From Lentisphaera profundi (GTDB taxonomy: Bacteria; Verrucomicrobiota; Lentisphaeria; Lentisphaerales; Lentisphaeraceae): DNA of 64,000 nt. The notes below the pieces were generated by a model. The model was not told the DNA's origin and made no database searches. It saw only the letters and a program-made list of their open reading frames with translations. The DNA lies in contig NZ_CP117811.1 in the NCBI RefSeq assembly GCF_028728065.1, positions 1,364,001 through 1,428,000 of the forward strand, in the 5' to 3' direction. Shown piece after piece: positions 6,234-63,235 of this stretch. Numbering within the stretch: the first letter of the stretch is position 1; every line of letters begins with the position of its first letter. The position numbers and the translations under genes were made by a program.

Positions 6234-6265
6234 GGGAGTACCGCTTCTTTGCATGCAATGTGACA
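6234..6265 (-). promoter_or_regulatory. Regulon promoter motif, copy 1 (DUF1592/DUF1552 operon)
   Basis: On the minus strand TGTCAC (6265-6260), a 17-bp spacer, then GGTACTCCC (6242-6234). It lies about 46 bp upstream of the DUF1592-type start and matches eleven other copies in this window. Confidence 0.75.
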
Positions 6266-6286
6266 AATTATTTATTTATTTTCGAT

Positions 6287-7093
6287 TTAATCTCCCGAGT
6301 AGCGTGTCCACATACCTAAAGGTTCGTTAAAAGTCCCGTTACCAATAGTGGACATGTGATACAGAGTATTGACATGGCCATCGGTAAATAGGTAGTTATA
6401 GCGAAAGGCTCGGTGTAAATTTTTAATGTAGAGATCTTGCTCATCTGGAGCATCAATCACGTCTCGATTATTACAACGACCGACTGCGTTGAGATCATAG
6501 GGTTCTTCCGTGAGTGCAATGGTATTGGCATGATCTTCCACATCAGTTATTTTTACAGAACCTCCTGAATGATCACCATAAGCTTCATTTTCGACACCCA
6601 CAACCCAAGCAATGCCATTGTAAAAACGACTCCCTCCGACACGTCCACGATTAAGGCTATATGTTCTACGATAGCGTACAGTGCTGCGTGATGGGATATC
6701 ATCATTGGGGCAAAGAAAGGGGTTGTTTGCTAAGCTATAATCTGCCGTAGGTATTTCATTCTTACTTTTGTCGATATCCGCCCAAGTAAAACCCATGTAG
6801 TCCGAGATGAGGTCATCATAAGCATATTGACTAGCACTGCGATCATCTGCAAAGGGATAATAGCCCTTATTATCTTCAGTATACATCTGCAGAGCGAGAC
6901 CTATTTGTTTCTCTGAATTTGTACATACAATCGTACGAGCTTTCTTTCTCGCTTTACTCAATGCTGGTAACAAAAGCGAAGCTAGGATTGCTATCACTGC
7001 AATTACTACGAGTAGTTCTATCAATGTAAATTTCTTGATCGTAATCTCCTGTTTCTTGGGTATACCAGAGATTTCTTTTATCTGTGACACCAA
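6287..7093 (-). CDS. Type II secretion-like pseudopilin (prepilin N-terminus, H-X9-DG C-terminus)
   Basis: About 268 aa. A short basic leader is followed by [20 protein letters not shown], the prepilin peptidase site (before Phe; Glu at mature position 5) and the hydrophobic spine. The globular part has CPND and the C-terminal FTDGHVNTL typical of DUF1559-like pseudopilins of the Planctomycetes/Lentisphaerae. There is no ATG near the 5' end: the frame opens TTG GTG (7093, 7090) about 6-9 nt after an AAAAGG ribosome-binding site, so a non-AUG start is likely. It ends 90 bp upstream of the DUF1592 gene with that gene's promoter motif in between, so the two are probably separate units. Confidence 0.85.
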
Positions 7094-7179
7094 AAATGAC
7101 CTTTTTTATAACTTAATACCAAATATTCAATAATACTGTAATATTCCCAAGAAAACTCTAGAACAGATCACTGACAAAA

Positions 7180-7470
7180 ATGAATAGAAAGAGAAGATTT
7201 AATTTAATCAAAAGACTCGTCGTGATCATAGTCATGCAATTTGATGAGATCCAAGAAATCAAACAAGTCGCTGAAGGATCACTTTTAATTGGAAAATGGA
7301 AAGTTGATGCAAATTTAGATCTAAGAAAAAAAGCGGGTCTAAAAATCAAAAACCCTCAGCAGAATTTGTACTTTGATAGTGATAATAATCGTGAATCTAG
7401 TGAACTAAAAAATGGAAATAACTCGAACATAATTGAGGATTTTGAGCGAGTCCCAAGAATTTTGAAGTGA
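7180..7470 (+). other. Possible decayed pseudopilin-like reading frame
   Basis: A 96-codon frame whose first residues, RRFNLIKRLVVIIVMQ, line up without gaps with the prepilin pattern [15 protein letters not shown], but the Glu at +5 is Lys and the hydrophobic spine breaks after 10 residues. The rest resembles no pilin. It fills most of the 400-bp gap between a pseudopilin and a kinase. It may be a degenerate pilin start or chance similarity; no clear ribosome-binding site was seen. Confidence 0.2.
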
Positions 7471-7556
7471 TTATCTCATTCATCATCAATAGCAGTTATT
7501 GATAATTAAGTTCTAAAGTGTTAATTGGAGCATCTCCAATTAATACTTTTGCTATT

Positions 7557-9524
7557 ATGTCAATAAACGAAAACCCCAATATTTTACGCGGCTTTTTTAA
7601 AGACGCTATAGCTGAGCCCAAGCAAAGTGGTTTAGAGTTGATTGAAGAACTCAAAGAATTACAGAATGAAGGCAAATTCACCGCAGGCACCAAGCTCGAT
7701 GAAGGTGGAATGAAAGATATCTTTGTTAAAGAAGATAAAATGACAGCGCGGCCCATTGCCATGGCCATTCCTCGTCAAGAAAAACGAGATATCGAATCTT
7801 TGAGTGCCTTCATTCGCGAAGCTCGCATTACCGCTCAGGTAGCTCACCCCAGTGTATTGCCGATTCACGAAATTGGTGTGGGAGAGGATGATATCCCTTT
7901 CTATACGATGAAATATATTCGTGGAGATAATTTTGGAGTCATACTAAAAAAACTTAAAGACGGCGATCCACAAGCTCGAAAAGACTATCCCTTGAGCCGA
8001 TTATTAGCGATATTTAATCGTATATGTGAGGCTATTTCTTTCGCACATTCAAAAGGAATCGTACACCTAGATTTAAAACCGGAGAATGTGCTTATTAATC
8101 CCTATGGGGTGGTTCAGGTTTGCGATTGGGGATTGGCGCAATATATCGATGCAATGGATGAAAGTATTGAAGGTGTGCTCAAAGGCACACCAGGCTATTT
8201 ATCACCGGAACAAATAAATGGAGAGCAACCTAACGTTCAAAGTGATGTCTTTGCCCTAGGAGTCATACTCTATCAAATTTTAACTTATGAATTACCCTTT
8301 GCAGGTCCTACAGTGGATATCATGCTGAAGAATACTTTACTTGGTCAAGCAAGGTCCATACGTCAAGCCAATATAAGTTTTCGTCATCCATCCGCACTTA
8401 GAGCCATTTGCCGAAAAGCAATGGCAAATGAAAAACGAAATCGCTACGAATCAGTACAATTAATGGTCGAGGATTTAGAGGCTTTTCAAGTGTATCGTCC
8501 CACGCTAGCTGAAAGTCCTAGTTTTTTTGGTAAATCTTTACTTTTGCTCAAGAGGCATAAAACAATTTCGATACTCTCAATGATTTCAATAACGCTTATT
8601 TTTTGCATCAGTGCAGTCTTTACCGTAAAAGTTAAAAAAGAAGAAATGCAGCGCATAGAAATATCTAAAAAGGCCGTCACTCATTACAATGATTTAGCAA
8701 ATGAAGCCTTTAAAGAATTTGATTTTGAAGAGGCCAAAAAGAATGCCTTACAATCCTTGACTTATAAGGATAACTTCGCGGCCAATGTATTGATGGCTCA
8801 TTATTATTTAGTTCATGGTGACTTAGCGGAGGCGAGGAAATACGCACTCGAATGTCAGGATGATACGAACCGCTACCTTCAGATCTGTGATGCCTTATTG
8901 CTAAAGACAGAACTTAAAGGCGATGATCTAATCTTAAAAATGCTAGAGGTGGTTTTGAAGTATCATCATCCAGGGATAGCAATAGATATTTGCTATCGTC
9001 GCAATGGTATGAGGCAAGATATTCAAAGTCATTTACCTTTTATCCACCGTTTATTAGAGGTTTTAGCTCCTGAACTTGACGATTATGAATTGAGTTTAAA
9101 AGAGAATGAAATCATTTTTAAAGCGGATGGGCATTTTACTCGACTGGCACTCTTTGCAAATTTACCTATACAAGAATTAGTTTTGAATAATAGCTATGTC
9201 AGAGATTTGAGTGCCCTTAGAAACTTAAAAGAGATTAACCGCCTAGAACTGAATAATACCATGGTCAGTGAACTAGAACCCTTGCGAGGAATGAATATTG
9301 AGTACTTAGATATATCCAATACCATGGTTCATGATCTCAAGGTTTTGGAGGATATTCATTTGGAAAACTTAAGAATGAAGGGTTTAAAAGTTTTAGCCCT
9401 CAGTGTCTTAACCACCAAAGAAGAACTTAAATCACTTACTTTGGATGAAGCTAAATTTACCACACCCCATGACAAGAGACATATCGCCACCTTAAAGAAA
9501 AAAGGCGTATTAATCAATGAATAA
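7557..9524 (+). CDS. Ser/Thr protein kinase, WNK-like lysine arrangement, membrane-anchored with TPR-like and LRR-like tail
   Basis: 655 aa from ATG 7557. An upstream GTG (7518) is also in frame, but the ATG start makes residue numbers identical to the paralogue at 49060-51021. Kinase domain about 45-320: P-loop EGGMK (Lys53 where GGMG-type loops have Gly), RPIAMAIP at the VAIK site (Ala70 in place of Lys), helix C Glu88, catalytic loop HLDLKPEN (Asp172, Asn177), DWG metal site (Asp190) and a GTPGYLSPEQ activation end. A membrane helix follows near 340-358, then a helical TPR-like part (FKEFDFEEAKKNALQSL) and about four leucine-rich units (near 535-630). It overlaps the GNAT gene by 8 bp. Catalytic loop and metal site are intact, so it is probably active. 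Confidence 0.9.
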   Translation: MSINENPNILRGFFKDAIAEPKQSGLELIEELKELQNEGKFTAGTKLDEGGMKDIFVKEDKMTARPIAMAIPRQEKRDIESLSAFIREARITAQVAHPSVLPIHEIGVGEDDIPFYTMKYIRGDNFGVILKKLKDGDPQARKDYPLSRLLAIFNRICEAISFAHSKGIVHLDLKPENVLINPYGVVQVCDWGLAQYIDAMDESIEGVLKGTPGYLSPEQINGEQPNVQSDVFALGVILYQILTYELPFAGPTVDIMLKNTLLGQARSIRQANISFRHPSALRAICRKAMANEKRNRYESVQLMVEDLEAFQVYRPTLAESPSFFGKSLLLLKRHKTISILSMISITLIFCISAVFTVKVKKEEMQRIEISKKAVTHYNDLANEAFKEFDFEEAKKNALQSLTYKDNFAANVLMAHYYLVHGDLAEARKYALECQDDTNRYLQICDALLLKTELKGDDLILKMLEVVLKYHHPGIAIDICYRRNGMRQDIQSHLPFIHRLLEVLAPELDDYELSLKENEIIFKADGHFTRLALFANLPIQELVLNNSYVRDLSALRNLKEINRLELNNTMVSELEPLRGMNIEYLDISNTMVHDLKVLEDIHLENLRMKGLKVLALSVLTTKEELKSLTLDEAKFTTPHDKRHIATLKKKGVLINE

Positions 9525-10548: not shown

Positions 10549-13500
10549 CTACTTTTCTTTGACAATGATGTTGATTGGCATTGCAGCGTAGAGTTCGTGG
10601 CGCAGGGCGTAGGCCTCTGCGTCACTTTCGTCGGCTAGTAAGAATCTTAGTTGACTCTGGCCAGTTTTATTATTGCTAATAATGACTTGTTGGCATGGCA
10701 CGGCCTTTTGTTCGGGACCATAAGTCAGATAATTTTGCGTACCCTCGACCAAGTTTTTGTTGATCGTAAGTGTAATTTCTTTTAGTTCATAATCGTGATG
10801 GGGATCCGAGAGTGAGATATGCCATTGATGATTGATTTTTTTGATTTGTACGAGTGCGGGCTGATCAACGGAAATTTTCAAATCGTCAATTTCCACTTCG
10901 CCTGCTTTGAGAAAGGCGGCTTGGAAAATTTGTTGTTCACGATTGTATATAACTTGTACGTCATCATTATTTTTGCGCTTGGTGAGCCGTAATTGCTTGA
11001 GTTTACTATCCATTTCGGCGAGTGTGAGGTGGGGGACAATTGAGTAGTTATAGCTTTCTTGTTTTGGGTCCTTGCCATGATCGAAGGCCAAGAGGAAAAT
11101 GTCTTGTTTAATCTTTGATTTCTTATCGGAGCGATTAATTGCCGAGCCTGCTTTTAAAGTGATTTGCTGATCATTTTTTGGGAAGATGAAGTAGCCAATT
11201 CCTTTGTGATAAAGCCAAGAAGGCTGATTGAGCGTCAATGATTCATCATAAGTGATTCCTTGCTTGATTGTGGACTTTTTCCCATTAAAACTACAATGGA
11301 GATCCTGTAGCCATTCGACTTGCTCAATACTTGTATAGATGGATTTCCCTTGTCCTTGCTTAGTACGAATAATGGAGTTTCCTAAAAAATGAACTTGGTC
11401 ACTTTCAAAGAAGTAAGCTTTGTTGGCAGCTGCGGAAGAATAGGGATCCGTACGGCTATAGCGAAAGGCTGAAAGTCCCGTCAAATTATCGCTCAATGAG
11501 GCACAGTAAGTTTCCTTGCTATAGGCTTTTTTCTCTGAACTTAAAGGAATGCGATCATCGCGAAATTCTTCGGTTAAGCCAGGCATGGCATGCCAGTCCA
11601 TGGCATAACGGGCTTTATCGTATTCACGTCCGCTTACTTTAATTTGGAAAATGCCGGAGCCATTATGAAAACCATAATCACCATTGCCTTTGAAGCCTTC
11701 GGCGCCACAGGCACGAGCCGATTGGGTTTTAACGGACATGAAGTAAGGTTTTTCTCCGCCTTGACGGTGAATCATGTAGTCGTTAACCCAATAGGAGAAA
11801 TTGCCCGATAGTTCTGCTGAGTCATCTTTTAATTGCTCGACATAGTTTTGTAATTTAGCGGAATTAGAGCTTTTATTTTGACCCTGGGTATCAAGTACTT
11901 GTTGAACTCCGGGGATGAAGATTTCTCGACCAAATTGACCTATTTTTGAAGAGTAGTGTGAACGACCAGTGACTTGGTAATCAATGCCGCCTTTATAAAT
12001 CATTTTGGGGTAGTTATAAAGGAAAAAATCTGTGGAGGCCTGAAAGGGAGCCAGCCCCACTTCAAAAGCACTACCCTTGAGCATATTGGCCACTTCACTT
12101 AAACCGATACTCTGCCATTCATAACCATAGGCATAATGAGCCATATCTTGTCTGGTTCCCGTATGATGTGAAATGGAGCCATCGGGTTTGAGACCAGAAT
12201 GATTAAAAAGACATGTGAGTCGACCATTGGTATCCGCCCAAACTTTGAGGTCAGTAAATGAACCGCGGGGTTCCCATTCAGGTAAAATATTGGTCGCTTG
12301 TTGACCCCATTCTTTGTAAGGGAAGTACCAGTAGGGTAAATAGGTGAGCGGTTGATTATAGTCCATTTGCAAAGCCACTTGGCAAATCCATGTGCGCATA
12401 CGGTGATGGCGATTAGCATCTGCCCAAATACCGCTAGATTTACGTAAGGTGCCGGGCTGCTTTAAATAATAACGCTGATTATTGGGGTCACGGTATTTTT
12501 CAGTTAAAGAGAAAGAAGAGAAGAGGTGAAAATTATTCATTGCCTCGAGATTTTCGCGTAAAACTTTGTCATTAGCTAAATCATTTAGCAAATCTGGTAG
12601 GATTAAAATAGAAGCGCCAATTAAGGGATCACCAAAACGCCATTGATGAGTAATGTCATTATGAGGTAAGTTCGTATAAGTATAGAAGTTATCCAAGGGG
12701 AAAGCTCGTGAGTATTCGGCAATAGCTTGGGCAAGTAATTTGGCTCTTTCTCGCCGAAGTTTTGTGTCTTTTTCACGACTATTGTTGAGTGCTAAGCCTG
12801 CTAAGCGTTCGGCTGCAGTGACTAATACTTTGCTATACGCTTTGCGATCAAAAGCCTCGAGGCGTTGCTCGGGAGTTTTGAGATCATAAAAATTGAGGTC
12901 GGAAAAACGGCCTTGGTTTTTTTCGAGATCTACAAATAGCGGCTTGTGAATCTTGCCTTTGAGTTTATAGCGAGCCGCAAGGCGAGTATTGTGATGAACT
13001 AAGGCTTCGGTCTTTTTCATATACTTGGACCACAGGGTCTCTAGCACGATATGTAATTGACAGTCTTTCGTTTCGATGAGTGAGTCACCATCGTAAAGTT
13101 CAACTGAAAAAGCAAGGCTGTCACCATCTTTTAAAAGGCAATCTTGCTTAAGACTGATTTGACCAAAAAGACGGCCATATTGATCGCGGTAATTATTGAG
13201 AGCTAGAGTCTCTTGACCTTTAGTGAGTTGAAATTTAATTTCAGGGGAAATGACTTTGCCTGGAGCTTGGAAGTTATTTCTATAATTGATTCGTCCACTA
13301 ATTTGAGTGCCCTTAGAACTACCGACTTTAATATCGAAGTAGCCAGCTAAAATTTGCTTTATTTGAGCTTCAGATTTTAGAGCGGCAATACCATTGGGGC
13401 TATCTTCTAGATTTAAGAATGAGTAGCTTAGTTGAAAGTCATTATTAGTGGTCTTTGGCTCTGTAAGTTCGCTGCTCTTTTTTTTGGCATGAGAACAGGA

Positions 13501-13557
13501 AAAGAACAGTAAGCCAGATAGGGCCATAGTTGATATATATAAGTTTTTAAAAGTCAT
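10549..13557 (-). CDS. PL8-family polysaccharide lyase (chondroitin/hyaluronan lyase-like) lipoprotein
   Basis: 1002 aa. Lipoprotein signal ending SGLLFFSCS. After an N-terminal beta-sandwich-like region (about 45-180), an alpha/alpha-toroid region carries PL8 landmarks: ITHQWRFGDPLIGA near 300 and LKPDGSISHHTGTRQD near 460, the latter at the site of the catalytic His/Tyr segment of chondroitin lyases. The rest is the C-terminal beta-sandwich part (for example FLGNSIIRTKQG and FDHGKDPKQESYNYSIVPH). Reaction expected from the family: beta-elimination of uronate-containing glycosaminoglycan-like chains. GGAG lies 6-7 bp before the ATG. It follows the sulfatase at 13630-14985 by 72 bp on the same strand, so it probably shares that gene's promoter motif. 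Confidence 0.85.
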   Translation of the reverse strand: MTFKNLYISTMALSGLLFFSCSHAKKKSSELTEPKTTNNDFQLSYSFLNLEDSPNGIAALKSEAQIKQILAGYFDIKVGSSKGTQISGRINYRNNFQAPGKVISPEIKFQLTKGQETLALNNYRDQYGRLFGQISLKQDCLLKDGDSLAFSVELYDGDSLIETKDCQLHIVLETLWSKYMKKTEALVHHNTRLAARYKLKGKIHKPLFVDLEKNQGRFSDLNFYDLKTPEQRLEAFDRKAYSKVLVTAAERLAGLALNNSREKDTKLRRERAKLLAQAIAEYSRAFPLDNFYTYTNLPHNDITHQWRFGDPLIGASILILPDLLNDLANDKVLRENLEAMNNFHLFSSFSLTEKYRDPNNQRYYLKQPGTLRKSSGIWADANRHHRMRTWICQVALQMDYNQPLTYLPYWYFPYKEWGQQATNILPEWEPRGSFTDLKVWADTNGRLTCLFNHSGLKPDGSISHHTGTRQDMAHYAYGYEWQSIGLSEVANMLKGSAFEVGLAPFQASTDFFLYNYPKMIYKGGIDYQVTGRSHYSSKIGQFGREIFIPGVQQVLDTQGQNKSSNSAKLQNYVEQLKDDSAELSGNFSYWVNDYMIHRQGGEKPYFMSVKTQSARACGAEGFKGNGDYGFHNGSGIFQIKVSGREYDKARYAMDWHAMPGLTEEFRDDRIPLSSEKKAYSKETYCASLSDNLTGLSAFRYSRTDPYSSAAANKAYFFESDQVHFLGNSIIRTKQGQGKSIYTSIEQVEWLQDLHCSFNGKKSTIKQGITYDESLTLNQPSWLYHKGIGYFIFPKNDQQITLKAGSAINRSDKKSKIKQDIFLLAFDHGKDPKQESYNYSIVPHLTLAEMDSKLKQLRLTKRKNNDDVQVIYNREQQIFQAAFLKAGEVEIDDLKISVDQPALVQIKKINHQWHISLSDPHHDYELKEITLTINKNLVEGTQNYLTYGPEQKAVPCQQVIISNNKTGQSQLRFLLADESDAEAYALRHELYAAMPINIIVKEK

Positions 13558-13629: not shown

Positions 13630-14985
13630 TTAGTGTGATTTTTTTGTTAGTTCGGGAATGAGAAAGTTGTCTTCGCTTAAGTCACACCATTCTTTTAGCA
13701 ATTTTCGATGTCGAAGAATTTCTAGTAGATGGGCTTTTGATTTGATCAGGTTATTCATTTCCCCTGGGTCTTTTTTGAGATCAAAGAACTGCTCTTTTTT
13801 ATTGCCGACGTCATAGGCGACGTATTTGTAGCGATCTGTTCTGAGCATGCGGCCTTTGATATTATAGGATACATCATAATTGGCAAATTCTGTTTCACTG
13901 ACGACATACTCACGCCCTAGCTTTTTATCATACATAAGTGGTTTGAGCGATTGGCCGATTAAATCATTTGGTGGCTTGATGCCCGCGTAATCACAGAGGG
14001 TGGGGATAAGGTCGAGGCCTGTAGAAATAAGCGCCTCTTTATCAATGTTTTTTTTATTTGAAGAAGCAGGATCTACAATAATAAAAGGGACTCGTACGGA
14101 TTCTTCGTAGAGTACGGATTTTTGATTCCATTGATGACAGGCACAACCATCACCATGGTCAGAGAGAAAAATGACCACGGTATTTTTGGCAAATTTAGAT
14201 TGAGCAATGAATTCACTGAGTTTGCCAATTTCAGTATCAACTTTTTCAATCAGGCGATGATAAGCCCAGACATATTGACGCCAGCGTTTTTCTTCCCAGT
14301 CCTGAGTAGGATAAGTTCTCCAATGAAGGCTTTTTACATAGCGAATGCAATCGGGCTCATCTTCACTGATAGTAAAGTTGTGAGGTAGGGCGGGGAGCTC
14401 AGCTAGATTTTCTGGGGGACTGCCAATCTCTCCTTCGGGAAGTTTATCACCCCGAGCCCATTGGCAGATATCGTGGGGATTGCGATATGAAGCAAGGACA
14501 AAGAAAGGCTTAGGACTTTCTTGCTGAATAAACTCAATTGCGGTGTCAGCAAGTAGGTGATCAACTGCACGGGCTTTGGTGTGACGATAGAGATCAAAGC
14601 CACGGCCGGCACCACCTATGAGGTGAGTTTTTCCCATGTATGCGGTGCGATAACCCGCTTGGCTCATGATTTCACCCATGACCGGGAAGTCATATTCGTA
14701 ATCAAGCTTATCACGATTGACTTGAGCGTCAATTTGATGAGGGATTTTCCCCGTCATCATACTTGTACGTGACGGTACACATATCGGCTGTGTGCAATAG
14801 GCCTTGTCAAAGTATGTACCTCGAGTAGATAATTTATCTAGATTGGGAGTATTGAGGCCTTGGACTCCCATTGAACCCAGAACACCGCCATGATGCTGAT
14901 CGTTCATGATTATAAGAATATTGGGCTTAGTATCTGCGAGGATACTTAAAAGGGGAAGAAGTAAAAAGATTGAGAATCGCAACAT
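13630..14985 (-). CDS. Secreted type I sulfatase (CVPSR)
   Basis: 451 aa. Signal peptide (MLRFSIFLLLPLLSILA). Alkaline-phosphatase fold with the metal-binding start NILIIMNDQHHGG, the TPNLDKLSTRG segment, the formylglycine site C69-V-P-S-R73 followed by TSMMTGKIP, and FLSDHGDGCACHQW later. This is the standard C-x-P-S-R motif, matured to formylglycine by FGE or an anaerobic sulfatase-maturating enzyme; neither is in this window. Head gene of a two-gene unit with a PL8 lyase, which suggests action on a sulfated glycosaminoglycan-like polymer. Preceded by a promoter motif at 15017-15048. Confidence 0.93.
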   Translation of the reverse strand: MLRFSIFLLLPLLSILADTKPNILIIMNDQHHGGVLGSMGVQGLNTPNLDKLSTRGTYFDKAYCTQPICVPSRTSMMTGKIPHQIDAQVNRDKLDYEYDFPVMGEIMSQAGYRTAYMGKTHLIGGAGRGFDLYRHTKARAVDHLLADTAIEFIQQESPKPFFVLASYRNPHDICQWARGDKLPEGEIGSPPENLAELPALPHNFTISEDEPDCIRYVKSLHWRTYPTQDWEEKRWRQYVWAYHRLIEKVDTEIGKLSEFIAQSKFAKNTVVIFLSDHGDGCACHQWNQKSVLYEESVRVPFIIVDPASSNKKNIDKEALISTGLDLIPTLCDYAGIKPPNDLIGQSLKPLMYDKKLGREYVVSETEFANYDVSYNIKGRMLRTDRYKYVAYDVGNKKEQFFDLKKDPGEMNNLIKSKAHLLEILRHRKLLKEWCDLSEDNFLIPELTKKSH

Positions 14986-15016: not shown

Positions 15017-15048
15017 GGATATACCAGATGAATTGGCTAGATGTGACA
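15017..15048 (-). promoter_or_regulatory. Regulon promoter motif, copy 2 (sulfatase/PL8 unit)
   Basis: Minus strand TGTCAC (15048-15043), 17-bp spacer, GGTATATCC (15025-15017), about 40 bp before the sulfatase ATG. Divergent from the plus-strand copy starting at 15105. Confidence 0.75.
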
Positions 15049-15104: not shown

Positions 15105-15136
15105 TGTCACATTTCAAGTATTTCTACGGTATTCCC
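15105..15136 (+). promoter_or_regulatory. Regulon promoter motif, copy 3 (small protein/DUF1961/sulfatase operon)
   Basis: TGTCAC, 17-bp spacer, GGTATTCCC; the GG is 37 bp before the ATG at 15165. Confidence 0.75.
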
Positions 15137-15164: not shown

Positions 15165-15503
15165 ATGAAACTGATTATAACATTAATAATATTCGTAAGT
15201 GTAAGTGCCTTTGCAGCTGAAACAGCACAATTAAGCGGTGTACTAAAAGTGCGCTTATATGAAGACCATAGCTTTGCCTATTATCTACAAATTAACGATG
15301 AAGAAAAAGTCCACATTGCCAAAAGAACTCATGCAGTGGATATGAGGAAATATGTGAATCAAAACGTCACCTTAGAAGCTGAACTTAGAAAAAAGACGAT
15401 AGATCAGCCCAGTAACTTTATTCGCCGTATTATTCAGCTTAAATCTCTGAATAAAGGGCCAGATAATACGTCGAAAAAAGCTTTGGTAGGGGGCGGTATA
15501 TAA
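15165..15503 (+). CDS. Small secreted protein of unknown function, family member 1
   Basis: 112 aa. Signal peptide (MKLIITLIIFVSVSAFA). The mature part, about 95 aa, is beta-rich by eye and has LSGVLKVRLYEDHSFAYYLQ, a KVHIA turn, VNQNVTLEAELRKKT and FIRRIIQLKSL. It aligns along its whole length with the protein at 34527-34871 (KVR..AYYL...KIHIS...VHQDVKVLARLREKT...FIRQIYSIE). No known domain recognised; the short strand-turn-strand pattern would suit an OB-like or small beta-barrel fold, but that is a guess. Head gene of a four-gene operon ending in a sulfatase; TAATG overlap with the next gene. Confidence 0.75.
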   Translation: MKLIITLIIFVSVSAFAAETAQLSGVLKVRLYEDHSFAYYLQINDEEKVHIAKRTHAVDMRKYVNQNVTLEAELRKKTIDQPSNFIRRIIQLKSLNKGPDNTSKKALVGGGI

Positions 15504-16895: not shown

Positions 16896-16907
16896 AGGGT
16901 GTTGCTA

Positions 16908-18899: not shown

Positions 18900-18931
18900 T
18901 GTCACATTAGTTCAATATCAGCGGTATTCCC
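18900..18931 (+). promoter_or_regulatory. Regulon promoter motif, copy 4 (DUF4962/heparinase gene)
   Basis: TGTCAC, 17-bp spacer, GGTATTCCC; the GG is 34 bp before the ATG at 18957. The motif directly abuts the upstream terminator. Confidence 0.75.
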
Positions 18932-21852: not shown

Positions 21853-22458
21853 ATGTCTGATTGGATCACCAACGTAACCCTTTTGCAGCGTGTTAAAAAT
21901 CAACATGACGATCAGTCATGGGAAGAGTTTAATGAATATTATAGGCCCTATATCTATATGATTACGAAGGGCTTAAATATGCAGCACGATGATGCGAAAG
22001 AAATTACTCAGTTGATCATGATCAAAATTTGGAAGAATCTTCCTAAGTTCGATTACGATCCTGATAAAGGCTATTTTCGGGGATGGTTACGTACGGTTAC
22101 AGTCAATATGGTCAGAAACTATATTGCCTCAAAGGCCTTCAAACAGGAGTCGCTTGAAAGTATTCAAGAATCAAATGAATCCCTACCTGATTTAGATCGA
22201 GATTTTTCAAAATCTGAAATAGAGCGAATTGCTGACGAGGAATGGGAAGTTTATATCTGTCGCCTGGCATGGGATAATGTAAAAGAAAACTTTGAGGAAA
22301 ATGCCCAAGAAGTTTATCGATTATTATCCGAGGGTAAGGAATGCGATGTCATTGGTGAGCAATTGGGAATAAAACGCAATACAGTTTATGTCTATCGCAA
22401 GAGGATTCAAGAAAAACTCTACCGTGAAATTCGTCGTTTAAATCACGAGTTGGGCTAA
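21853..22458 (+). CDS. ECF-type RNA polymerase sigma factor
   Basis: 201 aa from ATG 21853 (AAGGAG at 21841-21846; this start matches the paralogue MTDWLTN). Sigma region 2 about 20-95: SWEEFNEYYRPYIYMI, DAKEITQLIMIKIWKNLPKFDYDP, GYFRGWLRTVTVNMVRNYI. An acidic linker, then region 4 about 145-190 with VIGEQLGIKRNTVYVYRKRIQEKLY as the helix-turn-helix. No anti-sigma gene is adjacent. A close paralogue lies at 56145-56747. Candidate reader of the TGTCA-N17-GGTA motif, by co-occurrence only. Its own upstream region has no copy of the motif. Confidence 0.92.
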   Translation: MSDWITNVTLLQRVKNQHDDQSWEEFNEYYRPYIYMITKGLNMQHDDAKEITQLIMIKIWKNLPKFDYDPDKGYFRGWLRTVTVNMVRNYIASKAFKQESLESIQESNESLPDLDRDFSKSEIERIADEEWEVYICRLAWDNVKENFEENAQEVYRLLSEGKECDVIGEQLGIKRNTVYVYRKRIQEKLYREIRRLNHELG

Positions 22459-23253: not shown

Positions 23254-23420
23254 TAGCAGCCTGTCGGACTTCTCTCCGTTCGACTGCAAAACAGCGATAC
23301 TTCGACGGATTATCACCCGGAAATCGTTAAATATGCTCGATATTCTCCTCATTTCGGATAATAACCGACTTTGTTTAGCTCGTTTTTCGCTGCGAAGCTC
23401 AAAGTCCGAAAGGCTGCTAG
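23254..23420. mobile_element. MITE-like element with 18-bp terminal inverted repeats
   Basis: 167 bp, ends TAGCAGCCTGTCGGACTT (23254-23271) and the complement of TAGCAGCCTTTCGGACTT (within 23401-23420), one mismatch. No coding capacity. The same end sequence occurs singly at 60518-60537, and its core GCAGCCTG marks the junction of the transposase remnant at 41262. Confidence 0.65.
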
Positions 23421-23540
23421 GGGATACCGAAGCTTAAGAATAGATGTATCAGGGAACTGATAATAAAAATGATTTTATGATGAAGTATAAAATAAGGTCA
23501 TGATGACACCCGTATGAGAGGGTCCTTCCTAGTGGTAGGG

Positions 23541-45785: not shown

Positions 45786-45795
45786 TGAAGTGCCC

Positions 45796-45953: not shown

Positions 45954-45972
45954 GTGTTTCATTTTTATTAAA
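45954..45972 (-). promoter_or_regulatory. Candidate XylR-type operator, site D
   Basis: Minus strand TTTAATAAAAATGAAACAC, in the 351-bp gap between the regulator and GH43 genes, which are divergent. Nothing else is seen in that gap apart from A/T-rich stretches that may hold promoters. Confidence 0.4.
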
Positions 45973-46136
45973 TTTTTGATCATTTATATATATTGTGTGT
46001 TTTGCGGATAGGGCTTAGCTTTAGATCAATAAGAAAAATGATGATGAACGAGACGGCCTATTATAGACCAAAATACAGGCCTTAGTCAAAGGGTGCTGAA
46101 TCGGAGCTCACCAGAAAAAGAAAAAGGAATTAAACT

Positions 46137-47200: not shown

Positions 47201-47316
47201 TTCAAGACTTGTTAAACGTAGTGCTCCCGTTTTTCTGTGATTTCACCAAATCATTTACTCTTGTTTTTATAGAGTCTAATCACTTTCAAAAGATAAAAAA
47301 TTAGGGTTGTAAAAAT

Positions 47317-51133: not shown

Positions 51134-51165
51134 TGTCACAAAGTTAATACTTCACCGGTAATTCC
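51134..51165 (+). promoter_or_regulatory. Regulon promoter motif, copy 9 (heparinase/esterase operon)
   Basis: TGTCAC, 17-bp spacer, GGTAATTCC; the GG is 37 bp before the ATG at 51194. Confidence 0.75.
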
Positions 51166-56144: not shown

Positions 56145-56747
56145 TTAGCCGAGTTCACGATTGAGGCGGCGGATTTCTTTGTAAAGTTTTTCTTGGATGC
56201 GTTTGCGATAGATATAAACAGTATTGCACTTAATACCGATGTTTTCGGCAATAGTTTCACACTTGGTACCAGTGCTGAGTTGAGCGTAAACTTCTTGGAC
56301 ATTGTCGTTAAAATCAGCTTTTACATTATTCCAGGCTAAGTCACAGATATAATGCTCCCATTCACGATCGGCAATCGCTTCGATTTCGGCATCAGTTACT
56401 TTATTATTAAAGCCTTTGCCTTCTTCCACTTCCTCCAAACCTTCGATAGATTCATGACTATAAGCTTTCTTAGCAATATAGTTCCGGACAGTATTGACTG
56501 TAACGGTACGCAACCAGCCGCGAAAATAACCCTTGTCGGGATCATAGTTGAATTCGGGGAGATGTTTCCAGATTTTAATAATAATCATTTGGGTAATTTC
56601 TAAGGCATCATGATGACGTATATTTAGACCTTTGGTGATCATATAAATATAAGGACGGTAATACTCATTGAACTCATCCCAGGAAGAATCATCATGAGTG
56701 TTTTTTACTCGCTGTAATAAAGTCGCATTAGTTAACCAATCAGTCAT
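56145..56747 (-). CDS. ECF-type RNA polymerase sigma factor, paralogue of 21853-22458
   Basis: 200 aa. MTDWLTNATLLQRVKN, SWDEFNEYYRPYIYMITKGLN, ALEITQMIIIKIWKHLPEFNYDP, GYFRGWLRTVTVNTVRNYIA (region 2), an acidic linker, then TIAENIGIKCNTVYIYRKRIQEKLYKEIRRLNRELG (region 4, start and end of the helix-turn-helix). More than half the residues match the other copy, most strongly in the DNA-binding helix (NTVY(V/I)YRKRIQEKLY), so both may recognise similar promoters. No anti-sigma gene beside it. Downstream of a heparinase gene on the same strand, 54 bp away. Confidence 0.92.
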   Translation of the reverse strand: MTDWLTNATLLQRVKNTHDDSSWDEFNEYYRPYIYMITKGLNIRHHDALEITQMIIIKIWKHLPEFNYDPDKGYFRGWLRTVTVNTVRNYIAKKAYSHESIEGLEEVEEGKGFNNKVTDAEIEAIADREWEHYICDLAWNNVKADFNDNVQEVYAQLSTGTKCETIAENIGIKCNTVYIYRKRIQEKLYKEIRRLNRELG

Positions 56748-56801: not shown

Positions 56802-58850
56802 TTATTGAATGACTTGAGTATCTGCCATGAAGGAAATTATTTTTTTGATACCATTTTTGTAGATAGTATATGAGTGCTTACCTTCAGACTTATCGTAAAT
56901 GACTTTGAATTTTGAAGCTTTTTGACCTTCTTTTAGGGGTTCAAGAATATGAAAAAACTGGGGTTCATGATTCGATTTTTTTATGGTTTGTAGGGCCCAG
57001 GCAGGACGTCCCTGCATTTTTTTCTGTTCGTAGGAAATGAGACCTTTTTCTTTTTCTAGTTGAACGCCTTTTTCAATATTGAGTTGGTGAATATGCAGGT
57101 TGGGACCCGTTTTAAATTTGGTTTTAATAAAGGATTGATTCATTTCGATTTCACTTGGTGTGAGTTGGAAATGAAGACGTAATTCTCCCTTGGCAGAACC
57201 AAGTGCCTTGTCGTGAATGAGGAAATATTCTTGATCAATAAAAGCAATGGTACGTTGGTGTGTGAGCTCGGGATATGACTGATTCTCAATGGTGAGAATG
57301 CTAAGACTAGGTTCATTTTCCCAATGAGTCATTTTAGCTTTGAGCTGAATGTTTTTTCTATCGAGTGTCATGGTTTGGTGGGCTACGCTACTTCTAAACC
57401 AGGCTCTCAAGGCTTGTTCTTTGGGGTCATCACTATTGTAGATATAGCTACCTGAATCATTCATGAAATTACGTCCATAAGCATATAAACCGAAAGTGCC
57501 GTTGTCGATATTATTATGCCAAGCACCTGAAGTGTCATTCGCTTTTATAGGCATGAAAATTGATTGTTCATCCCAGCCAGAACGTAAGAAGTAAAAACCA
57601 CTGACAGGATAAGCTTTGGATAACTCTTTGGGAGCTTTACCTTTTTTGCCAGAACTCGCAAGGTACTGATAGAAAGTATTCTCTGGATAAGCTTTCAAAT
57701 GATGCTTAATAAGCATGCGTCGCACAGTGCCAGCTTTCTTTTTCCATGCATCACCAAATTGGCAATAAGTCATATCAGGATAGGCTTGATAAGCATAAAT
57801 CTCATACATTTTTTCAAGTCTTTCATGAAAGCTTTGTGGTAGGCGATCAGCCAAATTTTGTGCTTCAAGTTTTTTATAGAAATCAGTAAAAAGGTGGATG
57901 TACATGAGGTGATAAGAAAAAACTAATTCTTTATTCATGCCATCTTCAAAAATTTCCGTATCCATTAATTGAGGATACTTCGCTAAGACTTCATCGGTCC
58001 ATTCAGCTGACTTTTTGAATTCAGGGAAAGTAATGGCGGAAGTTAAAACACCATCTAAATCAGCTAAGAGGTGATTGCCTTTAGCGGCATGAACTTTGCG
58101 AATTTGTTCAGTTTGATGATGCTGCATATAGAGCACATTGAGTAAGAGTTCCGGAGTGAATTCCTTGGAGTGAATGAAATAAGGAAATACATAAATGAGG
58201 TTGCGATTGCGATTCTCGCATTCCATTCCTCGACGAATGAACCAGGGGTGACTTTTCTCTATAGGAAAAAGCTTAGTGATATATGAATTGAGTTCACTTT
58301 GCCATTCATCAAAATAGCGAGTGTCACCTGTGTTATAATAGCTCCTCGCTAAGGCCGGCCACCAATTAAATCGATGAAATTGGAAAAGCCACTCGGCATC
58401 ATGTACCATTTTTCCTTGATAAGTGGCTTTACTCACCCAATCAATTTCTTCGCCACGACAGAGTTCTGGATAAGATTTATTTCCCTTTAAATAATGCTTG
58501 AGGCTGAGATTGGCAGATCTTAAATCTAGCTCTGAAAGAGTTTCTTTTTTAGGACGAGGGAATTGCAAACGATAATATTCTAAGAGTGCTAGACTCGCTT
58601 GCTGATAATGCTGTTGTTCAAAATGAGCTTTGACTTGCTTTAAGGCTTCTTGATCAAGATCTAAAAAACTGAGGATTTCTTGAGGTTCTAAAGCAATCTT
58701 GTTGATATCCCAATCAAGAGATTTGTCCAAAGATTTTAAAGGGAGGTCTACATTTCCCTTGCTTACAGGATTAGAGCTCTCGCTCTGACATGAAGACAAG
58801 AACAGGGCGGCACAAAAAGTGAGGGAAATGATTGAAATATTTTTTCTCAT
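56802..58850 (-). CDS. Heparinase II/III family lyase (PL12-like), lipoprotein
   Basis: 682 aa from ATG 58850. A longer frame starting at 58877 would begin inside the promoter motif and is rejected. Lipoprotein signal ending ALFLSSC. Toroid about 90-400 (WPALARSYYNTGDTRYFDEW, RRGMECENRNRNLIYVFPYF, GNHLLADLDGVLT, GMNKELVFSYHLMYIHLF), then the beta domain with SGFYFLRSGWDEQSI, WHNNIDNGTFGLYAYGRNFM and SSVAHQTMTLD. This is the layout of heparinase III-like enzymes. Paralogue of 61110-63125. Divergent from a sulfatase, each with its own regulon promoter in a 128-bp gap. Confidence 0.88.
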   Translation of the reverse strand: MRKNISIISLTFCAALFLSSCQSESSNPVSKGNVDLPLKSLDKSLDWDINKIALEPQEILSFLDLDQEALKQVKAHFEQQHYQQASLALLEYYRLQFPRPKKETLSELDLRSANLSLKHYLKGNKSYPELCRGEEIDWVSKATYQGKMVHDAEWLFQFHRFNWWPALARSYYNTGDTRYFDEWQSELNSYITKLFPIEKSHPWFIRRGMECENRNRNLIYVFPYFIHSKEFTPELLLNVLYMQHHQTEQIRKVHAAKGNHLLADLDGVLTSAITFPEFKKSAEWTDEVLAKYPQLMDTEIFEDGMNKELVFSYHLMYIHLFTDFYKKLEAQNLADRLPQSFHERLEKMYEIYAYQAYPDMTYCQFGDAWKKKAGTVRRMLIKHHLKAYPENTFYQYLASSGKKGKAPKELSKAYPVSGFYFLRSGWDEQSIFMPIKANDTSGAWHNNIDNGTFGLYAYGRNFMNDSGSYIYNSDDPKEQALRAWFRSSVAHQTMTLDRKNIQLKAKMTHWENEPSLSILTIENQSYPELTHQRTIAFIDQEYFLIHDKALGSAKGELRLHFQLTPSEIEMNQSFIKTKFKTGPNLHIHQLNIEKGVQLEKEKGLISYEQKKMQGRPAWALQTIKKSNHEPQFFHILEPLKEGQKASKFKVIYDKSEGKHSYTIYKNGIKKIISFMADTQVIQ

Positions 58851-58866
58851 GAAAACCTTTTTCTTT

Positions 58867-58898
58867 GGTAATACCAATCAAATACTTTAAACATGACA
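58867..58898 (-). promoter_or_regulatory. Regulon promoter motif, copy 10 (heparinase lipoprotein)
   Basis: Minus strand TGTCAT (58898-58893), 17-bp spacer, GGTATTACC (58875-58867), 25 bp before the ATG at 58850. It decides that start. Confidence 0.75.
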
Positions 58899-58924: not shown

Positions 58925-58956
58925 TGTCACAAGTATTGAAAATTCATGGTATCACC
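58925..58956 (+). promoter_or_regulatory. Regulon promoter motif, copy 11 (sulfatase)
   Basis: TGTCAC, 17-bp spacer, GGTATCACC; the GG is 31 bp before ATG 58979. The ATG at 58946 overlaps this motif and is therefore not the start. Confidence 0.75.
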
Positions 58957-58978
58957 TAAGAAAGGAAAATCTTATTTT

Positions 58979-60520
58979 ATGAAAATATTACTATTGCTGA
59001 CTTTATACTTTTTTGCGTTCACCCATGTTTATGCGGAGCGTCCCAATATAATAATGATCGTGGGAGACGATATCGGCTTTTCTGATATAGGTGCTTATGG
59101 TTCAGAAATCTCAACACCCAATTTGGATAAGCTCGCAGACAAAGGCATGCGCTTTCGTCAATTTAATAATATGTCAAAATGTAACCCGACGCGTTCTTCT
59201 TTAATGACGGGTCTCTACACAGAGCAGCCAGGTGCGTATTGCTTCGTACAAAAAATGCGTGAAGCGGGCTATCACACCATGTTTGCAGGCAAACAACATT
59301 TGGATCCTTGGGTTCCTAAAAAAGTCTTCGCTAAAAATAGTTTTGATCGTTGGTTCGAGAGTCCCTTTTCAGCTTTTATGATTAAAAAAGATGGTGGCTA
59401 CCCACAGTATAATCGCGATGATCGAAGAGCCTTATTTGAGCTCAATGGAACCATGCTTGATGTGACTGAGCTAGAAACGACTCAGCCCTTTCATAAAACA
59501 GATGCTACAAGTGATTACGCCCTTAAGTTTTTAGACGAAGCAAAAACACTAGACAAGCCATTTTTCATGTACGTAGCCTATCATGCGGCGCATTTTCCTT
59601 TGCATGCGACGCCAAAGGATATTGCCAAATATCGCGATGTGTATCGCGAGGGATGGGATGAAATCCGTAAGCAACGTTTTGCCAAACAGCAGCGTTTAGG
59701 AATCGTCAAAAATCAGACTCGTTTGAGTGAAGTGAGTCGTAATATTAATCAAACCCGCCAGCCAAGTAAAGAAGATTTTTTAGAGAAACGCAAGCAGAGC
59801 ATGTACCATCGCCCTTGGAAAGATCTCACTGAACTTGAAAGAGATGACTTGAGTTTAGAAATGGCCGTCTTTGCTGCGATGGTTGACCGTATGGATCAGA
59901 ATATTGGTCGAGTTATTGATAAACTTGAAGAAATGGGCGTACGAGAAAATACACTCATTTTGTTTTTTTCAGATAATGGTTCATGTCCCTATGACTTTAA
60001 TCGCAGTTATGAGTATCCACCCGGCGTCCCCGAGGGCTATCGCTCACTTTCAGCCGCTTGGGCCAATGTGGGAAATACACCTTTTCGATATTATAAACAA
60101 TATGGCCACCGTGGAGGTATGAGTACTCATTTGATTGCTAATTGGCCCCATGAAATTAAAGCAGGGATTTTTTCAGATAGACTGAGCCATGTCATTGACT
60201 TAGCACCAACAATGATGGACTTAGCTAGGATAGATAAGAAGCAATACCAAGATTTACCCGGTTTAAGCCTCGTCAAAGAATTTAAGTCAGAGCCCAGTCC
60301 TCAACATGAATTTATTTTTGGTGGTTATGAAGGTTTCTATGCGTATCAGGAGGGAGACTGGAAAATTATCCAAGTGAATAGCGAAGTCGATAAGTGGCAA
60401 CTCTATAATATAAAAAATGACCCCACAGAAATCGAGAATTTAGCAAGCAAATTCCCTCAGCGCGTACAAGACTTATTGATCAATATGAAACAGCGCCAAG
60501 AACTTCCAGAAATACTTTAG
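58979..60520 (+). CDS. Secreted sulfatase (CNPTR), arylsulfatase A-like
   Basis: 513 aa from ATG 58979, with AAAGGA about 10 bp upstream. Signal peptide MKILLLLTLYFFAFTHVYA. NIIMIVGDDIGFSDIGAYGS, TPNLDKLADKGMRF, formylglycine site C68-N-P-T-R72 SSLMTGLYTEQ, AGKQHLDPW, YVAYHAAHFPLHA, FFSDNGSCPYD, YGHRGGMSTHLIANWP. C-x-P-T-R is the arylsulfatase-type variant. The stop codon TAG is the first three bases of the repeat end TAGCAGCCTG, so the 3' end of the gene may have been set by insertion of that element. Divergent from the heparinase gene. Confidence 0.9.
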   Translation: MKILLLLTLYFFAFTHVYAERPNIIMIVGDDIGFSDIGAYGSEISTPNLDKLADKGMRFRQFNNMSKCNPTRSSLMTGLYTEQPGAYCFVQKMREAGYHTMFAGKQHLDPWVPKKVFAKNSFDRWFESPFSAFMIKKDGGYPQYNRDDRRALFELNGTMLDVTELETTQPFHKTDATSDYALKFLDEAKTLDKPFFMYVAYHAAHFPLHATPKDIAKYRDVYREGWDEIRKQRFAKQQRLGIVKNQTRLSEVSRNINQTRQPSKEDFLEKRKQSMYHRPWKDLTELERDDLSLEMAVFAAMVDRMDQNIGRVIDKLEEMGVRENTLILFFSDNGSCPYDFNRSYEYPPGVPEGYRSLSAAWANVGNTPFRYYKQYGHRGGMSTHLIANWPHEIKAGIFSDRLSHVIDLAPTMMDLARIDKKQYQDLPGLSLVKEFKSEPSPQHEFIFGGYEGFYAYQEGDWKIIQVNSEVDKWQLYNIKNDPTEIENLASKFPQRVQDLLINMKQRQELPEIL

Positions 60521-60665: not shown

Positions 60666-60832
60666 TCCATTTTTTCAAATACAATGATTTTCATGACTTT
60701 AAGCTATTATGTGTAAATGAATTAGATATATGTGATGACCTTTAATTTGACTCATAGGTTTAATCTATCTTGTCGCCAAACTAAAGGCAATTCTTTGTAG
60801 GGAGCTCGAAGAGCTTAGGGATTTAGCCATTG

Positions 60833-60995
60833 ACTTAAGTCCGTGGTTTTTGAATAACCGCATCGTGCGTGCCGAAGGTACGCTGCAGAGCTTTAGTTTC
60901 ATACCTTCGGCATGAATCTCATTTTTCAACAATAGCCACCGGATAAATCAGGTGGCTACCATAACTACATACCTTCGGTATATACTTAAGTCCCC
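60833..60995. repeat. Array of three hairpins between ACTTAAGTCC direct repeats
   Basis: TGCCGAAGGTA (60870-60880) pairs with TACCTTCGGCA (60902-60912); TAGCCACC (60933-60940) pairs with GGTGGCTA (60951-60958); ATACC-TTCG-GTAT (60969-60981) is a UUCG tetraloop hairpin. ACTTAAGTCC occurs near both edges. The pattern resembles REP/BIME-type extragenic elements or a structured RNA. Confidence 0.5.
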
Positions 60996-61109
60996 CTACC
61001 ATTAAAGGGCCTTCGTCAGATGGGAAATTACTATTTTTCCGTACAACAAAGTGTTGACCACGCGACATTCTTTTCGAACTGATCTTACGGATTTAAGAGC
61101 TTAATTAAC

Positions 61110-63125
61110 TTAGAACTTAAGTTTTAGCGTTTTGTCTTTTTCAGTGACAATAATTTCCTTTCCTTGGATAGAAATTTGCGGCGGGTTTTTAAGGTTTTTC
61201 TGTGGCACTAAAAGAGTCAAAAAACGTACAGGCTTATCGGTGGTTTTATGTAAACTATAATTCCAGGCAGACCGTGCTTCTTTGTGAGTGATGAAATAAG
61301 ACACCCATCCTTCTTCGGTATTCATCGAGGGTCTTGTGTTTGTCATGGGTATGCCCTGTACGAGCAGGTTATTTCCATCTTTGTATGTGGTTGCTGCCGT
61401 CAGTTCAGCAGTGCTGATTTTGACCGGTGCAGGATTGAGTTGGTAGTGAACTTGTACTTCGCCAGCGGCACTACCAGTAGCTTCGTCCATAATCAAGAAA
61501 TATTTCTGATCGATAAACCATATCGTGCGGTCGTGACGAAGGCCAGGGTAGGATTGATTAGCGACCTTGAGCTTAGCCCAGTTTTCAGTTTCAAGGTATT
61601 CGGGGGAGTAGGGCTTTGAATCCACATCTTTCCCATTGAGCGTTAAGGTTTGGTGATTTCGGCTAGCTTGAAACCATTGGCGCCAAGCTTGGTCATCGGG
61701 ATTGGAACTGCCGTAGATATAGGATCCAGAATCTGACATGAAATTACGGCCGTTGGAATAGAGCAGGAAAGTTCCGTTGTCCGGCTGATTGTGCCATGGT
61801 CCACCGATAGAGTTTTTGAGAATCAGGATGCTTGAATCTTCGTCCCAGCCATTGCGAAAGGAATAAAAACCGCTTTCCGGATATTGGGCATTGCGAGCGG
61901 CAGGTGGAGTCGCGGGCTGGCCCTGAAAGCGTTTAGCAAAGTAGTTGAGGCTATCAAGGTTGGGGTAACGCTGGGCGTAAGTATCGAGCAGGTAGCCATA
62001 GCGGGATTCAGCAAGACCATTAAGGATTTTGCGGTATTTCCAGGCATCACCAAACTGGGGCACAGTGAAGTCGGGCAGCATAAACTCAGCAAAGGCGCCA
62101 TGCATACGTTTTACGAGTGGGGCGAAATCTTCGGGAAGCTGATTTTCGATACCGTGCTTTTTGGTGATTTCATAAACACGGGAAAAGAGCTCGATATACA
62201 TGGTATGATAACTGAAGACCATTTCACGATTGATGCCGTCATTATAGATGGTTTTGAAAAGCTGACCAGGCAAGCGACTCATGGGCTCTGCTCTCCATTC
62301 ACTAGCTTTTTTGAATTCGGGCATTTCAACACCGTTGACTAGAACCTGAGTTAATTCGCCGATTAAGTGATTGCCTTTTTTTGAGTAAGCGCGGCGGATA
62401 TGCTCGGCATTTTTGTGAAAAGTTCCTAAGAAAAAGAGCAGGGTTTCTGCATCAAAAGCTGACGATTTGATCATGAAAGGGATACTCTTGATATAATTTG
62501 CGCAACGATTGTCCGTTTCCATTCCACGACGTGCACACCAGGGGGCCTTGGACAGCTCTGGAAAGCTTCTATGGTGCGTAATCATTTCATAGAGCCATTC
62601 ATTGAAGTAACTTTCGTCTTTGGTGTCGGAGTATCTTTTGGCCAGTTGATTCCACCAATTGAGGCGTTGGTACTGAAAGAGCCATTCTTTGGAATGAATG
62701 ACTTGACCCTTGATGACGGCCTTGCCGATCCAATCAAGATCGAGACCCCTAAAAGCGGGTGGGTAGTTTTTGTTACCCTTGATGATATGTGCTAATGCTT
62801 GATCGGCAATTTTTATTTGTTCTTGGTCCAGAGCTTCGTAGGCAGGCATTTGACTAAATTTGTCTTGGTAATAACGCAGTAATTCACTCTTTGCTTTGGC
62901 GTAGTTTTTTTCCTCTATGGCAGCTTTAAGCTGATTAAGGCCCGGTAGGTTAAGGTCCAAAAGTTTAGCGATTTGCTGGATGCTATAATTATCCTGATGT
63001 TTATCGTATTCATTTCGCCAATTTTCAAGATAGTCATTTACGTGCCTTTTGACTTGCATCGGAGTCTCCGCCGCAGTCAAAGATGTCATAGTTAGACCGA
63101 TTAGTATTAATAAAATTTTATTCAT
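61110..63125 (-). CDS. Heparinase II/III family lyase (PL12-like), secreted
   Basis: 671 aa from ATG 63125; an in-frame TTG lies at 63131, but AAGGG is 8 bp before the ATG. Signal peptide MNKILLILIGLTMTSLTAA. Toroid about 60-390 with WWNQLAKRYSDTKDESYFNEW, RRGMETDNRCANYIKSIPF, KGNHLIGELTQVLVNG, GINREMVFSYHTMYIELF; beta domain with SGFYSFRNGWDEDSS, WHNQPDNGTFLLYSNGRNFM, SRNHQTLTLNGKD. Paralogue of 56802-58850, but exported freely rather than as a lipoprotein. Downstream of a sulfatase on the same strand, though with its own promoter motif 81 bp upstream. The leader carries a CAGGGCG/CGCCCTG hairpin (about 63156-63175). Confidence 0.88.
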   Translation of the reverse strand: MNKILLILIGLTMTSLTAAETPMQVKRHVNDYLENWRNEYDKHQDNYSIQQIAKLLDLNLPGLNQLKAAIEEKNYAKAKSELLRYYQDKFSQMPAYEALDQEQIKIADQALAHIIKGNKNYPPAFRGLDLDWIGKAVIKGQVIHSKEWLFQYQRLNWWNQLAKRYSDTKDESYFNEWLYEMITHHRSFPELSKAPWCARRGMETDNRCANYIKSIPFMIKSSAFDAETLLFFLGTFHKNAEHIRRAYSKKGNHLIGELTQVLVNGVEMPEFKKASEWRAEPMSRLPGQLFKTIYNDGINREMVFSYHTMYIELFSRVYEITKKHGIENQLPEDFAPLVKRMHGAFAEFMLPDFTVPQFGDAWKYRKILNGLAESRYGYLLDTYAQRYPNLDSLNYFAKRFQGQPATPPAARNAQYPESGFYSFRNGWDEDSSILILKNSIGGPWHNQPDNGTFLLYSNGRNFMSDSGSYIYGSSNPDDQAWRQWFQASRNHQTLTLNGKDVDSKPYSPEYLETENWAKLKVANQSYPGLRHDRTIWFIDQKYFLIMDEATGSAAGEVQVHYQLNPAPVKISTAELTAATTYKDGNNLLVQGIPMTNTRPSMNTEEGWVSYFITHKEARSAWNYSLHKTTDKPVRFLTLLVPQKNLKNPPQISIQGKEIIVTEKDKTLKLKF

Positions 63126-63203
63126 ACGCAATTCCCTTAAAGAGTTAGTTTAAGCAGGTCAGGGCGGAAGTTCGCCCTGTTTTAGTCCCGCAAGTTTTCT
63201 CTT

Positions 63204-63235
63204 GGTATTACTGATGAAACTGAGCATAAATGACA
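63204..63235 (-). promoter_or_regulatory. Regulon promoter motif, copy 12 (heparinase)
   Basis: Minus strand TGTCAT (63235-63230), 17-bp spacer, AGTAATACC (63212-63204). The first G of GGTA is A, the only deviation among the twelve copies at that place. Confidence 0.65.

Follow-up and report, generated by a model that had tools for sequence, protein, structure and literature searches.

A local promoter motif and a candidate ECF sigma factor-kinase system in a sulfated-polysaccharide gene cluster of Lentisphaera profundi

Organization of the Locus

We analyzed a 64 kb stretch of the Lentisphaera profundi genome (contig NZ_CP117811.1, positions 1,364,001 to 1,428,000; hereafter the window, with position 1 at its first nucleotide), in which a two-block sequence element, TGTCAY-N17-GGTANNNCC, is repeated in front of polysaccharide-degradation genes. 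The targets of this element in the cluster include sulfatases, polysaccharide lyases of family 8 (PL8) and heparinase-like lyases, GH29 fucosidases, esterases, and pseudopilin-like and small secreted proteins, a set that may fit a sulfated glycosaminoglycan substrate, perhaps a fucosylated one. The original prediction had listed twelve copies of the element and proposed that they are promoters of the extracytoplasmic function (ECF) type. All twelve were found at their positions and strands, eleven as exact copies and one, at 63235, with a single mismatch (AGTA replacing GGTA); two further copies had been overlooked, an exact one at 7058-7089 and a weaker one at 23420-23451. A pattern search on both strands thus gave 12 exact matches in the window. 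The copies and the genes that follow them are:

6234-6265, minus strand: exact; before a DUF1592/DUF1588 protein (2987-6196) and a DUF1552 protein (1638-2978)
7058-7089, minus strand: exact; before a pseudopilin-like DUF1559 protein (6287-7093)
15017-15048, minus strand: exact; before a sulfatase (13630-14985) and a PL8 lyase (10549-13557)
15105-15136, plus strand: exact; before a small secreted protein (15165), a DUF1961 protein, a CBM-like protein and a sulfatase (16899-18659)
18900-18931, plus strand: exact; before a DUF4962/heparinase-like lyase and possibly also the ECF gene at 21853
23420-23451, minus strand: weaker copy with 2 mismatches, 19.3 bits; 237 nt before a pseudopilin-like protein (22537-23187)
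29808-29839, minus strand: exact; before two PL8-type lyases (26564-29758 and 23796-26471)
33044-33075, minus strand: exact; before a sulfatase (31577-33025) and 30082-31566; orthologous genes with a site in a relative
33168-33199, plus strand: exact; before a pseudopilin-like protein (33230-33943)
34907-34938, minus strand: exact; before a small secreted protein (34527-34871)
51134-51165, plus strand: exact; before a DUF4962/heparinase-like lyase (51194-53641) and two GDSL esterases
58867-58898, minus strand: exact; before a heparinase II/III (56802-58877), with an ECF gene (56145-56747) next downstream
58925-58956, plus strand: exact; before a sulfatase (58946-60520)
63204-63235, minus strand: AGTA for GGTA, one mismatch; before a heparinase II/III (61110-63131)

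Properties and Distribution of the Motif

The spacer had been described as exactly 17 nt, and a scan of TGTCA[CT]-N(g)-GGTA with g from 11 to 23 bore this out, giving 12 matches at g=17 and at most one at every other length. When up to two mismatches were allowed, the window contained 18 matches compared to 4.5 +/- 2.0 in shuffled windows. In the whole genome (5.46 Mb), 15 exact matches were detected and none for the reversed control. Twelve of the 15 fell inside the window, which represents 1.2% of the genome (binomial P ~3e-21), and one of the remaining three was located 19 kb to the right of the window. A genome-wide regulon could therefore be ruled out: with only 15 exact matches in the genome, concentrated in one cluster, the regulon is local. 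All 15 were upstream of a gene and oriented toward it, as the original prediction had stated for its sites, and the motif therefore passes the test set by that prediction, under which it should not be as frequent inside genes as upstream of them. Start codons followed the end of GGTA after 21-54 nt at most sites and after 83 nt at 63235; the distance was uncertain at 7089, where a standard start codon is lacking at the right place, and long at 23451 (237 nt).

A weight matrix built from the window sites gave a similar picture. Above 9 bits, there were 22 matches in 144 kb around the window compared to 11 in 840 kb of other genome loci, and above 17 bits 18 and 3, respectively; all 22 were directed at a gene and nearly all were within ~110 bp of it. 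A CC pair four bases after GGTA (e.g., 15135-15136) was invariant in all 13 window sites and, at positions 31-32 of the matrix, was conserved as strongly as the TGTCAC block. Two promoter copies on different contigs, L021 (C2:1171034) and L018 (C1:1446753), differed at 1 base in 32, and this near-identity suggests a duplicated promoter and gene.

Instead of being promoters, repeated elements of this kind might be sites at which a one- or two-component regulator binds to activate or repress transcription. Bipartite operators exist, the CC pair is conserved like the first block, and the window encodes an AraC/XylR-type regulator (44635-45741). However, the two halves of the element are dissimilar and form neither a dyad nor a direct repeat, the spacer and orientation are fixed with 21-54 nt to the start codon at most sites, and the AraC/XylR-type gene is located in the sole module that has no motif site:

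34950-48861: xylan-like module (GH10, GH43, MFS_2 transporter, AraC/XylR-type regulator, sulfatases); without a motif copy, an internal negative control

In addition, the letters of the motif change in step with a clade of ECF factors across loci and genomes (see below). We therefore regard an activator or repressor site as improbable.

ECF Sigma Factors and Ser/Thr Kinases in the Cluster

The cluster also encodes ECF sigma factors and Ser/Thr kinases, neither of which had been included in the original prediction. Those in the window are:

21853-22458, plus strand: ECF sigma factor 2; TIGR02937 62 bits, above cutoff; start placed at the ATG at 21853 instead of 21811
56145-56747, minus strand: ECF sigma factor 1; TIGR02937 55 bits, above cutoff
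7518-9524, plus strand: Ser/Thr kinase, apparently with a single membrane span; repeat region at the C terminus; Pkinase 8e-33
49060-51021, minus strand: Ser/Thr kinase, apparently with a single membrane span; repeat region at the C terminus; Pkinase 2e-40

Both ECF proteins (200 and 201 aa) matched Sigma70_r2 and TIGR02937 above cutoff and contained a C-terminal helix-turn-helix, and their profile matched the solved SigE, SigW and SigH; they have the size and the sigma2-plus-sigma4 layout of an ECF factor. A third ECF gene was found at C1:1431089, 3 kb to the right of the window. There are ~60 paralogues of a window ECF factor in the genome, and those with the highest similarity (100, 70 and 68%) are the two window genes and C1:1431089; likewise, the three closest kinase paralogues in the genome are all in this cluster. 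A fourth ECF and a fourth kinase are located together in another cluster (C1:155-169 kb). A looser pattern, TGTCAC-N18-GTA, matched 36 times in the genome and its reversed control 17 times. Of the 36 matches, 17 were within the 83 kb of C1:1363616-1446784, and four were beside the fourth ECF. Overall, the genome contains ~60 ECF paralogues and ~100 kinase matches, many of them as adjacent pairs.

The ECF gene at 56145-56747 begins 54 bp after the motif-driven heparinase gene, and positive feedback is therefore likely. A relative of another genus that has an orthologous ECF locus (G005) carries a site 95 bp upstream of its ECF gene (33103), so in both genomes the sequence is consistent with autoregulation.

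Motif Variants at Related ECF Loci

Two-block patterns recurring upstream of genes were sought blindly, with shuffled sequences as the baseline for the scores, in 36 stretches, 33 of which were ECF neighbourhoods, and in another 60 stretches from relatives, covering ~90 ECF loci. This search recovered the window motif, TGTCAC-N17-GGTA (91.5 vs 79 in shuffles), TGTCAC-N17-TGTA beside the third ECF (87 vs 77), TGTCACTT-N15-GGTAA at C1:154911 (84 vs 77) and TGTCCC-N17-TGTA at the orthologous ECF locus of G005 (94 vs 78). In a tree of 112 sequences, the ECF factors of these four loci formed one clade with a support of 100, and the same geometry, with locus-specific letters, was present at the loci of every member of that clade. 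A weaker locus, C2:2618265, had AGTCAC-N17-TGTA (82.6 vs 75.5), and its ECF was outside the clade. Among the 36 and 60 stretches, the geometry was seen only in this one clade and at C2:2618265, giving no general motif of ECF loci; since stretches of 10-20 kb provide low power, its absence from other loci is weak evidence. Other high-scoring patterns were repeats or GC-rich coding patterns and were discarded.

The recognition helix of sigma4 was near-invariant in the clade (RNTVYxYRKR or close), as was the -35 element. The helix RNSVYKYRKR of the G005 factor goes with TGTCCC, and the helix ERNTIYVYKKR of C2:2618265 goes with AGTCAC. Although the cases are few, this covariation between helix and -35 sequence is suggestive.

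Conservation in Relatives

The ECF gene of G005 lies next to orthologues of several window genes, namely two sulfatases (59 and 66%), 30082-31566 (69%) and the gene of the DUF1961 protein (49%), and TGTCCC-N17-TGTA sites stand before the orthologous sulfatases as well as before the ECF gene itself. The variant TGTCCCAT-N16-GTA occurred nine times in G005, was absent from the genome of the window and had 0-2 matches in three other relatives. In G005, the closest kinase is on a contig other than that of the ECF; this contig carries the motif as TGTCAC-N17-TGTA, with three TGTCACAT-N14-CTGTA sites, one of which lies 40 bp upstream of the kinase gene. Across five genomes, TGTCACAT-N14-CTGTA had eight matches, five in the cluster of the window and three on the G005 kinase contig, compared to none for reversed controls and one when the spacer was a base longer. 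An operon adjacent to the kinase (glucosamine-6-phosphate-isomerase-like protein, 2-hydroxyacid dehydrogenase and ThuA) is orthologous in the two genomes (51, 62 and 53%, respectively) and is preceded by a site in both.

Two scans of relatives' contigs identified no close ECF beyond G005. Two relatives of the same genus as L. profundi, which are without a close ECF, had 0 and 2 exact sites, as low as expected. These distributions bear on the possibility that the element is a promoter read by another or the housekeeping sigma factor, with the ECF genes of the cluster as bystanders. The presence of ~60 ECF paralogues in the genome would leave room for such a reader. However, the motif is almost lacking outside clusters with this ECF clade, relatives without a close ECF carry only 0-2 sites, and the relative with an ECF orthologue has its own variant around and before that ECF gene, making a reader from elsewhere in the genome highly improbable. 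In Pontiellaceae bacterium B12227 (L177), up to three genes had TGTCC[CT]-N17-ATCAT upstream, which is possibly the site of another local regulator.

Proposed Regulatory System

The fixed spacer, single orientation, experimentally tested ECF promoter geometry (see below), ECF genes in the cluster and clade-wide motifs in two genomes support the reading of the elements as ECF promoters, in agreement with the original prediction. Almost certainly, the repeated sequence is recognized by a few related, dedicated sigma factors whose genes lie within the ~83 kb cluster, and at the level of sequence the link between promoter and sigma factor is strong. We consider it very likely that an ECF-kinase system drives the sulfated-polysaccharide cluster through TGTCAC / GGTA-TGTA promoters read by the local ECF clade.

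In the proposed mechanism, TGTCAC would serve as the -35 element and GGTA, or TGTA in the right-hand part of the cluster, as the -10 element. The predicted readers are the ECF clade members 21853-22458, 56145-56747 and C1:1431089, which, when bound to RNA polymerase, would switch on the sulfatases, PL8 and heparinase-like lyases, fucosidases, esterases, pseudopilin-like proteins and the glucosamine-6-phosphate-isomerase-like operon. One of the sigma genes at least (56145) immediately follows a gene under motif control, an arrangement that may provide positive feedback. The three membrane Ser/Thr kinases of the cluster would respond to the polymer or to its degradation products by activating the sigma factors, taking the place of the usual anti-sigma factor.

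Three observations weigh against this proposal. ECF promoters do not usually carry a strict CC such as that at positions 31-32, and related ECF loci lack it. One of the same-genus relatives without a close ECF, G002, has two identical exact copies of the motif, at C4:54668 (L100) and C14:62228 (L101). Finally, the sigma2.2 phospho-Thr signature of ECF43 is absent from the clade, in which the third position of the DALE/DAKE motif is L, K, Q, S or E.

Relationship to Known ECF Systems

The ECF41 promoter, TGTCACA-n16-CGTC, was tested experimentally in Bacillus licheniformis and Rhodobacter sphaeroides (PMC3426412). The promoters of the cluster have the same -35 letters (TGTCACA, with a 16 bp spacer) and the same distance between elements, the CGTC of ECF41 falling where GGTA is located here. 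However, the -10 element is GGTA or TGTA instead of CGTC, and the targets are polysaccharide genes, whereas those of ECF41 are COE genes. ECF41 is defined by a fused C-terminal regulatory domain; the window factors (~200 aa) end after sigma4, which rules out membership in this group.

In ECF43 (EcfP-PknT of Vibrio parahaemolyticus and EcfK-PknS of Xanthomonas citri), the ECF is encoded with a membrane Ser/Thr kinase (PMC13147305). The cluster resembles ECF43 in combining an ECF with such a kinase, and no anti-sigma factor was seen among the window genes. In contrast to ECF43, the window factors largely retain the acidic residues of sigma2.2 (DALE, DAKE) and have no conserved phospho-Thr, and three ECF genes and three kinases are present in one polysaccharide gene cluster. 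Membership in ECF43, which involves loss of DAED and its replacement with a phospho-Thr, was thus ruled out.

ECF-kinase neighbourhoods are a hallmark of six ECF groups, and ECF59, ECF61, ECF62 and ECF217 of Planctomycetes, a phylum of the Planctomycetes-Verrucomicrobia-Chlamydiae (PVC) superphylum, have neighbouring Ser/Thr kinases and a DAED-like motif (PMC8999054). The factors described here share these features, being PVC-superphylum ECFs that lie beside Ser/Thr kinases and have a DAED-like motif. No promoter motif or regulon of these four groups was found in the literature searched. In polysaccharide utilisation loci of Bacteroides, an ECF switches on a glycan-degradation cluster together with a TonB/SusC-type receptor and a membrane anti-sigma factor. 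The L. profundi cluster is similar in that an ECF factor would turn on glycan degradation; unlike in the Bacteroides loci, no Pfam match to SusC/SusD or anti-sigma families was detected among the 40 window proteins scanned.

ECF factors as such, their pairing with kinases and their control of glycan clusters are all of known kinds. The literature searched, with the large ECF reclassification outside it, contained no description of this promoter or of these factors, nor of how sulfatase clusters are controlled in Lentisphaera or Kiritimatiellota.

Proposed Role of the Kinases

A Ser/Thr kinase is encoded near the ECF genes and is co-inherited with them, as in kinase-associated ECFs. Because the phospho-Thr signature of ECF43 is absent, the case for kinase control rests on gene neighbourhood and co-descent, from which the sigma factors are probably controlled by the membrane kinases of the cluster. 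Alternatively, the local ECFs may read the motif with the kinases uninvolved, control being exerted through transcription of the ECF genes themselves or through an anti-sigma factor that has gone unseen; this would affect the kinase step only. The factors largely retain the acidic residues that sigma2.2 requires to bind the core and could therefore function without phosphorylation, and no Thr is conserved in the clade at the ECF43 position. On the other hand, the kinases of the cluster are one another's nearest paralogues in the genome, as are its ECF factors, the kinase orthologue of G005 has the clade motif 40 bp upstream and beside it even though it is on another contig, and ECF-kinase neighbourhoods mark whole ECF groups (PMC8999054). 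On balance, we find it rather unlikely that the kinases have no part in this control.

Additional Features of the Window

Several other genes had unusual features. The pseudopilin-like gene 6287-7093 (minus strand, start near 7050) has no ATG, GTG or TTG at the start position expected after the promoter; an ATT or ATC after GGAG would yield a normal prepilin leader. The small secreted proteins 15165-15503 and 34527-34871, both motif-controlled, are homologous (37% over 76 aa, E 5e-14) and matched no Pfam or NCBIfam family. The GH43 gene at 46137-47200 (plus strand) consists of two overlapping open reading frames in different frames, each corresponding to one half of the Pfam profile; this split is a frameshift, either real or a sequencing error.

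Implications

Marine PVC bacteria possess hundreds of sulfatases, and the literature searched contained no account of how clusters of these genes are induced. For one sulfatase cluster, the system described here offers a concrete answer to how it would be switched on, naming promoters, sigma factors and candidate sensor kinases and predicting, letter by letter, the sites of relatives. It also provides a natural series of sigma/promoter variants (TGTCAC/TGTCCC and GGTA/TGTA) in which the evolution of ECF promoter specificity and insulation among ~60 paralogues may be followed. We tentatively raise the possibility, for which we would not claim better than modest odds, that the ~60 ECFs and at least as many kinases constitute an address system, in which each pair or small family would drive only its own polysaccharide cluster via a promoter of fixed geometry, the letters having drifted with the sigma factor such that neighbouring regulons would be insulated from each other.

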